Below, one piece after another: positions 2,761-7,141 of a DNA stretch of 16,429 nucleotides. Origin of the DNA: Bacteroidaceae bacterium (lineage in GTDB: Bacteria; Bacteroidota; Bacteroidia; Bacteroidales; Bacteroidaceae). How positions within the stretch are numbered: the first letter of the stretch is position 1; every line of letters begins with the position of its first letter. The position numbers were made by a program, and so were the translations under genes. The stretch lies in assembly GCA_021443285.1 (NCBI GenBank), contig JABUUG010000003.1, positions 26,055-42,483 on the forward strand, in the 5' to 3' direction. A model generated the notes under the pieces. It had not been told where the DNA came from, ran no database searches, and saw only the letters and a list, made by a program, of their open reading frames with translations.

Positions 2761-3156
2761 TTAGAAGTGCGACATTACCTCATGTGCTGCTGCCGCACAC
2801 AAGGCGCGGTATTCCTTGAAATGCTTGAACTTCACTATATCGGGATGCTGCATATCCTCTTCCGATAATGCCTCGGAAGCAGAGAGTTTGTCGAATAGTG
2901 CTTCAAGGGCATTGATGATTAGGGCAAACTCCTCTTTCGGCGCGTAGGCAGCCTCTATGAGTTGGCTCTTGATATGCGCATAGTCCATTTGTGCGTCTAT
3001 CTGCACTTGCGCAGCGGTGTAGCCTTCCTCTTCCTCGTTGGTGTCGGAATTGGTCTGTATGGCAGGGTTGATGTTAAGGGTTACTGTGCGAGTATCCTTG
3101 TCGAATATCGCAGGTGCTTCGTTGAAGAAGCGGTGTTGTAGTCTTCCTGTAAGCAT
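2761..3156 (-). CDS. Hypothetical phage protein, acidic and helical (131 aa)
   Basis: I do not recognise a named family with certainty. The N-terminal half looks beta-like (DTRTVTLNINPAIQ). The C-terminal half is predicted helical and acidic, containing YAHIKSQLIEAAYAPKEEFALI and ending in a Tyr-Arg and Ala-rich helix (EYRALCAAAAHEVM). This layout resembles small proteins found between tail fibre genes in Bacteroidales prophages, with a Y-x-x-[VI]-[KR] helix and an A-x-Y-[KS]-x-[DE]-[DE] segment. It is acidic, which argues against its being a basic Avd-type DGR accessory protein. It sits 14 bases after the 77-aa frame and 23 bases before the fibre gene, so it is probably co-transcribed with both. 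A role in tail assembly or as a fibre chaperone is a guess from position only. Confidence 0.65.
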   Translation of the reverse strand: MLTGRLQHRFFNEAPAIFDKDTRTVTLNINPAIQTNSDTNEEEEGYTAAQVQIDAQMDYAHIKSQLIEAAYAPKEEFALIINALEALFDKLSASEALSEEDMQHPDIVKFKHFKEYRALCAAAAHEVMSHF

Positions 3157-3170
3157 GGTCGTATTGGTGT

Positions 3171-3404
3171 TTATATGATTACTTTTTCTTTATTGTCTGT
3201 ATATATCATTATTCCTTGACTGTCCTCTGTTACCTCACGGTCATTAATCTCCATTATGGATGTTGAAGCAATATCTATATCATATTTCCTTCCACCCTTA
3301 TCAATGAAGACGGTCTTGAAGCGGGTAACATTATGGCGTATCATGTCATCGCAGAATGACTTGATGCCAATGGCGTTCACGATTAACTTGTGAACTACCC
3401 ACAA
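3171..3404 (-). CDS. Orphan 77-aa reading frame next to the insertion, probably 5'-truncated
   Basis: This frame is open from inside the right-end hairpin of the insertion element to a TAA 14 bases before the 131-aa gene. Its longest form would start at a TTG inside the hairpin, so the first few residues (LWVVHK) come from, or abut, the mobile element. The first in-frame ATG is the Met of CDDMIRHNV, which would leave about 56 residues, and no ribosome binding site stands before it. The protein has a mixed beta pattern (FKTVFIDKGGRKYDIDIAS) and no motif I recognise. It does not match the C-terminal motifs expected of a DGR reverse transcriptase. The best reading is the 3' end of a phage gene whose start was lost with the insertion; it may not be expressed. 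Confidence 0.45.
   Translation of the reverse strand: MWVVHKLIVNAIGIKSFCDDMIRHNVTRFKTVFIDKGGRKYDIDIASTSIMEINDREVTEDSQGIMIYTDNKEKVII
3375..3395. repeat. Inverted repeat just outside the right-end hairpin
   Basis: GTTCAC and GTGAAC form 6-bp arms separated by 9 bases, directly abutting the tnpB stop codon and the right-end hairpin. It may be part of the transposon end or a chance palindrome at the target. The exact element boundary cannot be set here without an empty-site sequence. Confidence 0.4.
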
Positions 3405-4600
3405 ACTAAAGATTTGTGGGCTTCCGACTTCACAGAGGAATGCCCTTTCAAAAGATTAGGTCTTCTATCCTCTCCATCGGTGTAATCGACAGTCCCTGCC
3501 GATATATTGTTTAATCCTAATTTTAGAATATTGATAGCAGCATTGACATCTCTGTTATGAGATGTTCCACAAGATGGACAAGCCCAGTCTCTTACATTTA
3601 AGTCATTGATTCCGCTATTAACAAAGCCGCAGACATTACAAGTTTGAGAGGACGGATAGAACCTATCAATCTTAACTACTTTTCTGCCATTCCAATCAGC
3701 CTTATATGTTAGCATAGTTACGAATGCTCCCCAACTCACATCGGTAATTGATTTTGCAAGTTTGTGATTTCGTAACATACCTTTCACATTAAGGTCTTCA
3801 ACGCAAATGGTATCATAGTTAGAGATTAGAGTGTGAGAACACTTATGCAAGTAGTCCATACGGCAATCAGAAATCTTCTCGTGAAGTTTGGCAACTTTGA
3901 GCCTTTGGTTTTCGTACTCATTACTGCCTTTCTTTTTTCTTGAGAGGTGTTTCTGCGCTACTGCAAGTTTCTTCTCATATCTCTTTGTGTATCTGTTATT
4001 CTTGAATACTTCGCCATCAGATGTCGTCAAAAGGTCTTTCAATCCTAAATCTACACCAACTACTTTGTTAATGGGTGCAAGTTCTTGGTATTCCTCCGTT
4101 GTGAAGACTGATACAAAATACTTTCCTGTCGGAGTTTTAGTTAGGCTAACTTTACCCATCTCGCCTTTAATATCTCTATGCAGACGGATAGATATACCAC
4201 TCTTGAATTTAGGTAGCCACAACTTACTATCTTCAATAGTTGCATATTGAGGGACAGTAAATGTATTCTTTCCTTTCTTCGAGTGATATTTCGGAAACTT
4301 TGCTCTCTTTTGAAAGAAATTGGTATATGCTGTTTCAAGATTACGCAACGCAAATTGGAGTGTTTGAGAATTTACCTCCTTGAGCCAAGCAGTTTCTTCT
4401 TGTTTTTTCAACTCAGTTAGAATCTTTGCTTGAGCATAGTAGTTATCGCTTTCTCCTTTCTCTTTGTATTGCTTTTGTCTTTGATTAAGGAAATAGTTAT
4501 AGACAAAGCGAGTACAACCAAAATGCTTTGCTAACAATTCCGTCTGGGAAGCATTTGGGTATATCCTAAATCTGTATGTTCTATTTATAGTCTTAATCAT
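3395..4600 (-). CDS. tnpB: TnpB, IS200/IS605-family RNA-guided nuclease (401 aa)
   Basis: TnpB proteins are RuvC-like, RNA-guided DNA nucleases related to Cas12 that favour retention of their element. The N-terminus (YRFRIYPNASQ, then FGCTRFVYNYFLNQR) is the conserved OrfB helix-turn-helix region. All three RuvC acidic residues are present: Asp184 in GVDLGLKD, Glu268 in ICVEDLNVKG, and Asp351 in HNRDVNAAINI. The zinc-ribbon cysteines 321, 324, 341 and 344 lie between RuvC II and III, as usual, so the enzyme looks catalytically complete. I chose the ATG at 4598-4600 because it begins the family N-terminus; the open frame extends 36 codons further upstream, but that part is antisense to the tnpA remnant. 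A TATATTTG motif (4605-4612), like the Bacteroides -7 element, lies five bases upstream, too close for an ordinary leader. The stop codon TAG directly adjoins the right-end hairpin. Confidence 0.95.
   Translation of the reverse strand: MIKTINRTYRFRIYPNASQTELLAKHFGCTRFVYNYFLNQRQKQYKEKGESDNYYAQAKILTELKKQEETAWLKEVNSQTLQFALRNLETAYTNFFQKRAKFPKYHSKKGKNTFTVPQYATIEDSKLWLPKFKSGISIRLHRDIKGEMGKVSLTKTPTGKYFVSVFTTEEYQELAPINKVVGVDLGLKDLLTTSDGEVFKNNRYTKRYEKKLAVAQKHLSRKKKGSNEYENQRLKVAKLHEKISDCRMDYLHKCSHTLISNYDTICVEDLNVKGMLRNHKLAKSITDVSWGAFVTMLTYKADWNGRKVVKIDRFYPSSQTCNVCGFVNSGINDLNVRDWACPSCGTSHNRDVNAAINILKLGLNNISAGTVDYTDGEDRRPNLLKGHSSVKSEAHKSLVCG
3398..3420. repeat. Right-end (RE) hairpin of the insertion element
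   Basis: CCCACAAA, loop CTAAAGA, TTTGTGGG: a perfect 8-bp stem. It overlaps the last codons of tnpB (SLVCG). Its loop is identical to that of the left-end hairpin, which ties the two ends together as TnpA recognition structures. Confidence 0.9.
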
Positions 4601-4612
4601 GCTGCAAATATA

Positions 4613-4834
4613 CATATAATTTTTCTCATCAGCTATCCACCTAACATATCGGTAACTTCTATTGTTAGAAAACTCAAACAAGAAAGTACTATATTCGCTT
4701 GGAGACACTTTGAGAATAAGTTGAAAAGAGAGTTTTGGGCTGAACGCACACTATGGAGTGATGGTTACTTTGTATGCTCTATTGGGGAAGCAAATCCCGA
4801 AACGATTAGAAGGTATATTGAACAACAAGGATAG
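4613..4834 (+). pseudogene. tnpA: tnpA remnant: 3' part of a Y1 (HUH) transposase
   Basis: Reading the plus strand in the frame ending at TAG 4832-4834 gives a typical IS200 TnpA C-terminus: SYPPNISVTSIVRKLKQ, then FWAERTLWSDGYFVCSIG, then ETIRRYIEQQG. The YIEQQ motif carries the catalytic Tyr and Gln (YxxxQ). Upstream, where the HUH motif should lie, the frame reads H-I-I before FLIS, so by my alignment the first His is kept and the second is lost. The N-terminal half, about 70-80 residues, is missing and there is no start codon. The remnant starts almost exactly where tnpB starts on the other strand, suggesting an internal deletion at about 4600-4613. It should be inactive, so the element cannot transpose on its own. 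It was missed as a gene because it has no start. Confidence 0.85.
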
Positions 4835-4877
4835 TGCCTTACATCCCATAGGCTAAAGACCTATGGGTTTTCGGCAC
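4834..4877. repeat. Left-end (LE) hairpin of the insertion element
   Basis: The inner stem is CCCATAGG (4845-4852), loop CTAAAGA (4853-4859), CCTATGGG (4860-4867). An outer stem GTGCC (4834-4838) with GGCAC (4873-4877) extends it across short internal loops. The stop codon and last ten or so residues of the truncated reverse transcriptase are encoded inside this structure, so the junction between phage and element lies close to 4877-4885. Confidence 0.88.
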
Positions 4878-5621
4878 TTCCTTATATAAATGCTTCTCAA
4901 TACGTTTCACTCGCCATTTGATTTGCCACCTGCTGTTAGCAAAGAAAACAAAATCATCAAGATACCTTACATATCCCTTGCATTTCAGTTCTTCGGTAGC
5001 AAATCGGTCAAGAGTCATAAGGCATATATTTCCTGCCTGCTGGCTTGGTCGTATGCCGAGAGGTATCTTCTTGCCTGTATCGCTATACCGCTCGAACGGC
5101 TCCATAAAAGCATTGATGAAATCTTTATCCTTGAATAAGCGAGACAGATTGGTACGGAGTAAATCATGAGAAATGTTATCGTAATACTTGATAATATCAC
5201 ATTGAGCGTACCATATATCTTCTCCTCTATGCTTACGGAGAAAGTTGCGGATTGCCAATGCCGCCTTAATCTGCCCATAACCGATACGGCTTGCGTATGT
5301 ACGCCCTATCAGTGCCTTTTCAACTCTTCTCATAGACATTAACACAAGAGACTGGTGCTGGATATGGCTTGGATGAAAATGGAGTTTGGCAATATCGCGC
5401 AACTTATTCTGACCGCTGCGCCGAAACTCATGCTTATATTCTCCAGTCCTCATTGTATGATTAAGAATATGCTGCTGTATCTCTATGAGATTGTTCCAGC
5501 GGTTATGAATATGCTTCCTTATTCCGAGATTACTCTGTTTTCGCTTTGTACTTACGCGCTCCGCTTCCACAAGGTTCTCCCATACAGCCATCTGCTCGTA
5601 TATGTGTCCTACACGCTTCAT
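4839..5621 (-). CDS. Diversity-generating retroelement reverse transcriptase, C-terminally truncated by the insertion (260 aa)
   Basis: DGR reverse transcriptases copy a template-repeat RNA with errors opposite adenines; the cDNA then replaces the variable repeat of a target gene. The core motifs are present: CDIIKYYDNISHDLL (Asp142 and Asp148, motif A), IPLGIRPSQQAGN (residues 186-198), whose G-x-x-x-S-Q form is typical of DGR enzymes rather than group II or retroviral ones, and YLDD (220-223), the catalytic aspartates. The frame breaks off after IEKHLYKE; the last residues (about VPKTHRSLAYGM) and the stop are encoded by the IS left end. Family members usually run to 300-400 aa, so the final conserved segments (the lysine-bearing one and the one ending F-L-G) and the thumb are missing. 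The enzyme is probably inactive. It lies 197 bp downstream of the target gene. The start ATG has only a weak ribosome binding site. Confidence 0.9.
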   Translation of the reverse strand: MKRVGHIYEQMAVWENLVEAERVSTKRKQSNLGIRKHIHNRWNNLIEIQQHILNHTMRTGEYKHEFRRSGQNKLRDIAKLHFHPSHIQHQSLVLMSMRRVEKALIGRTYASRIGYGQIKAALAIRNFLRKHRGEDIWYAQCDIIKYYDNISHDLLRTNLSRLFKDKDFINAFMEPFERYSDTGKKIPLGIRPSQQAGNICLMTLDRFATEELKCKGYVRYLDDFVFFANSRWQIKWRVKRIEKHLYKEVPKTHRSLAYGM

Positions 5622-5818
5622 GTCATTCTATCCGCTTGCTTCGTTTCTGTGTGTAGCTTTCAGCTTCTATTATATAGATTTACTAACGCCACTGGCAAAG
5701 GTGCTGACACCTGTTGCGCAAGGTGAATGTTGTTTTGACAGACACAGGCTATACATACGCTACCTGCCGCCAAGGTTCATGGTAATCGGAGGTGTTCCCA
5801 TGACGCAGTAATGACCTC
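5622..5818 (-). other. Non-coding spacer between DGR target and reverse transcriptase
   Basis: This is where a template repeat and avd gene are often found in DGRs. I compared it by eye with the VR and found no copy of the VR sequence, and no frame long enough for Avd. It holds an inverted repeat next to the target stop (5788-5819), an AGGAGG directly at the target stop, a 13-codon mini-frame (5801-5760, reading MGTPPITMNLGGR) about 13 bases beyond that AGGAGG, and a promoter-like site at 5669-5698. The mini-frame is probably not a gene, but a strong Shine-Dalgarno is unusual for this host group. Confidence 0.5.
5669..5698 (-). promoter_or_regulatory. Possible promoter for the reverse transcriptase
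   Basis: On the minus strand TTGCCA (5698-5693) and TATAAT (5674-5669) are separated by 18 bases, a near-consensus sigma70-type promoter about 50 bases before the RT start. Bacteroidales housekeeping promoters usually have TAnnTTTG at -7, which is not matched here, so its use in this host is uncertain. Confidence 0.3.
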
Positions 5819-5819
5819 C
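5788..5819. repeat. Inverted repeat immediately downstream of the VR
   Basis: GGAGGT (5788-5793) and ACCTCC (5814-5819) face each other across 20 bases, ending in the target stop codon. Many DGRs carry a hairpin or cruciform just after the VR that helps target recognition. The position fits; the stem is short and the loop long, so this assignment is tentative. Confidence 0.4.
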
Positions 5820-7141
5820 TAATCTTTTCTTAAAGTATGGCGCGCCGCAATGTTCGAGTTCGTGTTCGACCAAGCGTTGTTCGAGTTCGAGCAAGCGAGA
5901 CCGCAAGCCGACCCGTTGTTCGAGGTACCGCCCCAGAGCCACAGCAGACCCAAAGAAGAACAATAATAAAAGTCGCCATAGTTCGTATTAGCGTTGCTCT
6001 CCTTTGGCAGCATATAGGCACCTTGCCCTGTAGCATCTGCTATAATATTAATGCCTACAGAACTAATTGTTGATGATGCTCGCTGTAGTATTATATGGTC
6101 AATATTAGTGAATGAGGAGGCAGTAGGTGTTCCAGTAGGAAGAACATTACCGCGCCAGCGATATGTGTCTGTTGAGTTGGCTATGGAGCATAAGCCCTGC
6201 ACCATCTCCCAATACTGTCCCCACGGATTTTCAAAACCATGCACGCTGACGCAATGAACGGTGTCTCCGTTAGCATCTGTTGTGGCGACCTTACCGTCAG
6301 CATTGCCGAGAGAGAGCGTCTTTCCTGTGGTAATTGATTTCTGGTCGTTAAACCTATCTGCTCCTTTAGACTCTGTTCCGTCAAGCCCGACTCCCCATAT
6401 CAGCGTACCATCGGAGAGAGTCGCTTCCTGACAACTGCGCTGCGCATACTTGCTCATCATGTAGAACAGTAATATATCGCGGAAGTCCGCATTGGCGAGA
6501 CCGAAGTTCTTGCCCCTTACTTGCGCCCAGTTCCAGAATGTGTTGATAGTCTGGGACGTGGTAGGCACTTTGTTCGGCAGTGAGCGATAGCCTCCGCTTG
6601 CGCTGCCATATCCAGTGAACTTGCCAACCACCTGCTGCGGAATGACAAAGCCGTTTGGCAGCGGAATGAGCGACAGCCATAGACGCTGTATGGTGTTCGC
6701 GCCGACAGAAACCTCCTGTATATGCCCGTATGTGAGCGGTATGACGGTCATCATGTCGCAGTGCGCCCACTTGGAGAGTATCTCGTTTGTAGTCATATCC
6801 ACCACCGCTTCGCCTTCAGAAGTATAGCGGCAGTCGTTAGGATTGAGCAGACAACAGTTGCCATCTTTCTGGAGCAGGATGTCTTTCCACGAGTCCTCCC
6901 ACATCTGCCTCATGTGGGCATTGCCGCCAACATCAACGTGCTTTACATTACCGTCAGAAGCCCTCTTGTTGATGTCTATGTAGAAGGCGAGGTCATTAAG
7001 CACTTGGTTGTCATTGTCGTTGAGGTGTGTGCGGAAATCCTTTACTGTCATGCGTTTTGTTGCATTGCCTACGACCATAAGCATAGCATCGTCATCGGTC
7101 ATCTGCGTAACCACTGGTTTTTCTGTAATCTTTGTTGCCAT
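5819..7141 (-). CDS. DGR target: tail adhesin with C-type-lectin-like variable domain (440 aa)
   Basis: Probable receptor-binding tail protein. The N-terminus (ITEKPVVTQMTDDDAMLMVV) is a short attachment module of the kind found at the start of Bacteroidales prophage fibre proteins. The C-terminal part has the features of the formylglycine-enzyme or C-type-lectin fold used by DGR targets: FRDILLFYMMSKYAQ, IWGVGLDGTES, ENPWGQYWE (residues 304-312, with Trp307 and Trp311), and a final variable segment from WLWGGTSNNGS to AARHTLRKD (residues 401-440). The variable segment is full of Asn encoded by AAC. No signal peptide is present, as expected for a virion protein. It follows the 353-aa gene by 24 bases and is followed by the DGR reverse transcriptase. 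The fold and the neighbouring RT together make the DGR-target call strong; receptor binding itself is inferred. Confidence 0.88.
   Translation of the reverse strand: MATKITEKPVVTQMTDDDAMLMVVGNATKRMTVKDFRTHLNDNDNQVLNDLAFYIDINKRASDGNVKHVDVGGNAHMRQMWEDSWKDILLQKDGNCCLLNPNDCRYTSEGEAVVDMTTNEILSKWAHCDMMTVIPLTYGHIQEVSVGANTIQRLWLSLIPLPNGFVIPQQVVGKFTGYGSASGGYRSLPNKVPTTSQTINTFWNWAQVRGKNFGLANADFRDILLFYMMSKYAQRSCQEATLSDGTLIWGVGLDGTESKGADRFNDQKSITTGKTLSLGNADGKVATTDANGDTVHCVSVHGFENPWGQYWEMVQGLCSIANSTDTYRWRGNVLPTGTPTASSFTNIDHIILQRASSTISSVGINIIADATGQGAYMLPKESNANTNYGDFYYCSSLGLLWLWGGTSNNGSACGLACSNSNNAWSNTNSNIAARHTLRKD
5822..5941 (-). repeat. Predicted DGR variable repeat (VR)
   Basis: The last 40 codons of the adhesin. 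Eight Asn codons, all AAC, lie in short Ser/Thr/Asn clusters (SNN, SNSNN, SNTNSN), the usual substrate of adenine mutagenesis because AAC can change to many residues but never to a stop. Trp and Gly positions between them would form the invariant scaffold. The exact limits need the template repeat, which is not in this window. Confidence 0.75.
5839..5848 (-). promoter_or_regulatory. Candidate IMH (initiation of mutagenic homing) site
   Basis: A run of ten G/C bases (GCGGCGCGCC on the coding strand) stands at the 3' end of the VR, after the last AAC codon and before the invariant end of the gene. In known DGRs the IMH is a GC-rich tract in this position. The assignment is by analogy. Confidence 0.45.

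Follow-up and report, generated by a model that had tools for sequence, protein, structure and literature searches.

Probable destruction of a Prevotella-group prophage diversity-generating retroelement by two lesions, one in its reverse transcriptase and one merging its variable and template repeats

We analyzed a 16,429-nt stretch of DNA (the window) that forms the right end (positions 26055-42483) of the 42,483-bp contig JABUUG010000003.1, in the draft genome of a Bacteroidaceae bacterium (GCA_021443285.1; 309 contigs, 76.8% complete). What is left of a diversity-generating retroelement (DGR) lies within it: an adhesin gene ending in a single repeat and a reverse transcriptase (RT) gene in two pieces, with an IS200/IS605-family element between the pieces (Table 1). 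A preliminary description had noted the adhesin with its AAC-rich end, the RT with G-x-x-x-S-Q and YLDD motifs, and the passage of the RT frame into the insertion sequence (IS), and had read the locus as a DGR disabled by that insertion. All of these features are present, and the reading is right but incomplete: the template repeat (TR) is gone as well, apparently merged with the variable repeat (VR), and therefore excision of the element alone could not restart the DGR. We consider it probable that the DGR of a Prevotella-group prophage was destroyed twice, by a lesion in the RT and by a merger of VR and TR. Both lesions are seen directly in this assembly, and relatives show the intact layout.

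Table 1. Features of the DGR locus and its neighbor in the window
Feature	Position	Strand	Basis or remark
Conserved 131-aa gene, direct 3' neighbor of the RT in relatives, synteny marker	2761..3156	-	ORF list, relatives' loci
RT 3' remnant (final 72 codons), homologue of residues 406-476 in an intact 477-aa RT	3171..3389	-	comparison with intact RTs
IS200/IS605-family element, ~1.5 kb, end hairpins 3398-3420 and 4845-4867	3390..4885	-	junctions, other copies
tnpB, open 401-aa frame, IS200/IS605 TnpB type	3395..4600	-	profile matches
tnpA C-terminal remnant, ~69 codons	4625..4834	+	N-terminal part missing
RT 5' fragment, 245 host codons, reaches past YLDD	4886..5621	-	ORF, profile and PDB sequence matches
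Region homologous to relatives' post-TR flank and RT leader	5622..5838	-	flank comparison
DGR target, phage tail/adhesin protein, 440 aa, without homologues' conserved C-terminal tail	5819..7141	-	ORF, PHROG, homologues
Single, putatively fused VR/TR repeat, 109 nt, in frame at adhesin gene end, TR-like, TR-type 3' end	5839..5947	-	repeat scans, flank comparison

Relatives without the insertion, which the preliminary description had proposed to look for, provide the reference. From 32 loci we counted 22, after dropping five duplicates (L048, L051, L053, L054 and L060), two loci without an RT (L042 and L047), one with a cut RT (L050) and two distant ones (L066 and L067). Each of the 22 combines an RT frame of 470-497 codons from stop to stop with a separate VR and TR, in the order target gene with VR, 133-219 bp, TR, RT. 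The two repeats are direct and ~110 bp long, and 310 of their 337 mismatches lie on TR adenines, which identifies the ancestral element as a DGR. A GC-rich hairpin stands behind the VR in 21 of the 22, with scores of 4-9 against a 95th percentile of 3 for shuffled flanks. Among the relatives, the TR of Segatella copri iA622 (L049, 7608-7724) departs from the TR majority at 10/22 adenine columns and at 5/70 others, as if its own VR or mutated cDNA had replaced the template sequence; the DGR is otherwise intact.

The repeat of the window combines the two sides of this layout. Upstream it continues the adhesin frame, and downstream it passes into what is post-TR sequence in the relatives. It is closer to the TR than to the VR in 22/22 comparisons; the flank behind it is closer to the post-TR sequence in 22/22, and the flank before it to the pre-VR sequence in 20/22. 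Because the stretch after the repeat corresponds to the relatives' post-TR flank and RT leader, their VR-TR spacer has no counterpart here. An adenine-tolerant ungapped scan found no separate TR in the window, and BLAST found no second copy of the repeat in other contigs of the same genome, from which small contigs may be left out. The separate TR of a working DGR is thus lacking in this assembly. The post-VR hairpin of a working DGR is lacking too: the scan that recovered it in relatives found none behind the window repeat. Rfam gave no match at the gathering threshold.

The adhesin itself matches a PHROG tail protein; neither Pfam (at E 0.001) nor the PDB sequences (at E 1) gave a match. Its structure model was poor (pLDDT 50) and was not used. 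The C-type lectin label given in the preliminary description is unproven and is based on the appearance of the VR. The end of the adhesin is distinctive in two respects. A C-terminal tail of the RLAYYG/A type occurs in 119/119 other target homologues (120 listed of 700 found, one being the window's own adhesin) and is absent here, and of the 10 template-Asn positions 8 carry asparagine, compared with 0-5 in each of the other 115 homologues that were scorable.

To account for these observations, we propose that the VR at the adhesin end would have recombined with the TR 130-220 bp downstream. Such a merger would have removed the C-terminal tail of the adhesin and one repeat together with the post-VR hairpin, leaving an adhesin whose end is an Asn-rich repeat of mostly template-like sequence. 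Separately, the IS200/IS605 element would have entered the RT, with ~480 bp of RT sequence lost beside it. Mutagenic retrohoming should be impossible in what remains, because neither a separate template nor a VR boundary nor a complete polymerase is left; we infer the loss of activity from these gaps. The adhesin, presumably still functional, would change by ordinary mutation only.

The base differences within the repeat are compatible with this proposal. Four adenine-column differences fall in the first 56 of its 109 positions and none in the remainder, as a crossover of a mutated VR with the TR would leave, although the statistics are weak. Against majority TRs at an 80% threshold, the repeat differs at 5/22 adenine columns and 3/66 others (Fisher p 0.02), one of the five lying at the repeat's edge; at a 90% threshold the counts are 2/18 and 1/52 (p 0.16). 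The adenine bias is suggestive only. A further interpretation, which we regard as improbable, is that the merger served as an adaptive lock: the receptor-binding loop would have been mostly reset to the template ('germline') state and the template removed in one step, the result being kept by selection in lineages settled on one host surface, with the four adenine differences marking the crossover.

Several points weigh against the proposed double loss. It relies on a single draft assembly in which a collapse of VR and TR could mimic a merger, and at the stated completeness a distant TR or RT could escape detection. The adhesin's loss of variation is likewise predicted from one assembly. The 22 loci are not independent and include several near-identical groups, the pre-flank scores are low, with 2/22 loci not favoring the pre-VR sequence, and weaker hairpins (scores 0-4) also stand behind the TR in 8/22 relatives by the same scan.

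The assembly concern can be stated as an explanation of its own, in which the RT lesion alone is real, the merger is an assembly shortcut, and the TR and adhesin tail are still in the true genome. Fragmentation of the draft and the direct repeats of the relatives both speak for it. However, the longest exact in-register run shared by VR and TR in the 22 relatives is 13-32 nt (median 21), and from position 61 on the exact runs are 10-27 nt, which would be short for an assembler to confuse. The joined adhesin frame is also open and stop-terminated, and the second repeat copy appeared on no other contig within the limits given above. We therefore judge an assembly shortcut unlikely.

The broken DGR might also be served in trans, if its cell held a further RT and TR that diversify the adhesin. 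There is precedent in gut prophages, where a single RT can act on second VRs located distally (PMC12629997). But one RVT_1 match was found in this incomplete genome, and the repeat has neither a second copy nor a hairpin behind it, which makes service in trans very improbable.

The RT lesion is read more directly. Profile matches of the RT open reading frame (4839-5621, minus strand) are to phrog_1423 'Reverse transcriptase' (E 8e-43) and, exceeding the cut-off, to Pfam RVT_1, and the fragment's top PDB sequence match is 8ub7 (E 3e-11), a DGR RT according to the entry title. With the model of an intact relative's RT, DGR RTs rank first and second by Z. On these matches and this model, the ancestral enzyme was probably a DGR RT. 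The last ~15 codons of the open reading frame are IS sequence: host sequence extends to TTTAT (4886-4890), and RT sequence resumes at 3389, past TAGTTCAC. Between the two pieces ~160 codons (~480 bp) are missing, comprising RT motifs 6-7, the thumb and the start of the C-terminal extension, and the complete RT of a working DGR is therefore absent. The preliminary description was correct that the final motifs and thumb are lost beyond the break, but the C-terminal tail survives behind the element.

Homologues of the RT are long. At least 420 aa was the length of 119 of the 120 matches listed (194 found, with candidates limited to 262-835 aa), and a second search over 143-455 aa found 34. That the fragment is a naturally short functional RT is hardly credible: three homologues of 231-250 aa (P0123, P0126 and P0134, on contigs of 1.9-6.0 kb) among the matches listed would allow natural shortness, but two of them align unbroken to their last residue, like sequences cut at a contig end, and the third is a distant RT, while a natural end near residue 248 was sought and all 22 loci proved longer, the break falls inside helix 231-248 of the intact model, and the missing tail lies behind the element.

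The RTs of this phage family also carry a C-terminal extension of ~140 aa, mostly strands in the model (L010, 8001-9434, residues ~335-477). The structural alignment rows to solved DGR RTs cover model residues 3-336, that is, the part before the extension.

The inserted element belongs to the IS200/IS605 family by its TnpB, which scores 456 bits against NCBIfam NF038281 (IS200_TnpB; cut-off 425), and by its near-end hairpins, which have the same loop at both ends and are paired likewise in other copies. A complete TnpA, required for autonomy and not for membership in the family, is absent. Because tnpA is reduced to its C-terminal part, the element is probably unable to move by itself; the missing N-terminal part is where we take the H-x-H motif to have been. 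The junctions agree with those of other family copies, in which a TTTAT-type left flank was seen in 5/5 readable cases and the same right end as in the window in 4/6, with a single-base difference in both copies of genome G042. No TTTAT stands at the left insertion site in the 11 relatives' loci shown. A model of two insertions plus recombination was tested as well, and no TTTAT precedes the right-hand RT flank in 15 loci shown of 17.

In its own genome, the window's copy of the element was the only one found, and partial relatives of ~70-78% identity occurred in 2 other genomes of 398 (E 1e-20; two candidates per genome scored). Relatives of the same IS (TnpB 70-72% identical) were seen in other viral contigs (L071, L072, L073 and L079), each with a TTTAT-type flank.

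With respect to age, the preliminary description had suggested a recent loss. No stop codon occurs in the two RT pieces (245 + 72 codons). In a regression of 78-105 intact pairs, with expectation from three neighboring genes, the identity of the fragment is on average 2.4-5.6 points below the expected value, a small deficit of ~0.5-0.9 residual standard deviations. Conserved residues were defined on homologues collected with the distant member L010 as query. The 5' fragment differs at 7/67 (95% threshold) and 5/52 (98%), exceeding all 115 homologues, and at 10/83 (90%), which 2/115 homologues reach; the tail differs at 0/17 (90%). These residue departures may reflect mild decay. Ahead of the VR, the adhesin departs from 31/185 conserved columns, a larger share than in any other member of the set (at most 14%), which an outlying lineage would be expected to show. 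Relative to the divergence of the family, the loss of the DGR looks recent, which is plausible and not proven.

The surroundings are those of a phage. An integrase gene (PF00589) lies toward the contig's opposite end and an SPP1-type portal gene within the window, so we take this to be a prophage or phage contig. A relative locus from a same-genus genome is letter-identical to a stretch of Prevotella sp. 885, which places the host in the Prevotella group. Among phage records, 94 match the RT, every one at <60% identity.

DGRs are thought to be retained for the benefit of a hypervariable adhesin, and there is little documentation of how lineages lose them. In this locus, comparison with 22 intact relatives resolves both lesions to the base. 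The merger points to a simple route of death for any DGR, in which its own direct repeats recombine. Should this hold generally, a target that is TR-like, lacks the tail and is followed by no TR would be a searchable signature, with which the frequency of DGR death could be studied, as could the question of whether a frozen lineage is a dead end.

Comparison with known systems, cited here from excerpts of each source, separates what is familiar from what appears new. A 2012 report described DGRs whose RTs were disrupted by an insertion element, a nonsense mutation or a frameshift while VR/TR stayed intact (PMC3521204). The window resembles those DiGReF examples in its insertion-broken RT frame, theirs being from Acaryochloris marina, and differs in that its RT has lost ~160 codons and its VR and TR are merged. 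RT disruption by insertion elements is thus already known; for the VR-TR merger we found no printed case in the open-licence literature, a limited library, and it appears unreported there. In cyanobacteria, degraded DGR cassettes retain remnant TR-VR homology with transposases nearby, IS200/IS605 is the most widely distributed family near the variable proteins, and the authors suggest that the machinery was removed after a good variant had been selected (PMC7517822). Those remnants are cellular and dispersed, whereas the locus described here belongs to a phage and keeps both lesions legible in place. In BPP-1, such a post-VR hairpin is a target determinant (PMC3240598). The intact relatives share with BPP-1 the target VR, TR, DGR-type RT and post-VR hairpin; the window is without a separate TR, hairpin and complete RT, and the RTs of its family extend ~140 residues past the part that aligns with 8ub7. 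Strains of Treponema denticola carry target genes while RT and TR are both absent (PMC4891356). The excerpt of that report describes no VR-TR merger or RT-borne IS, and the trait that it has in common with the window is that targets outlast a lost DGR core.
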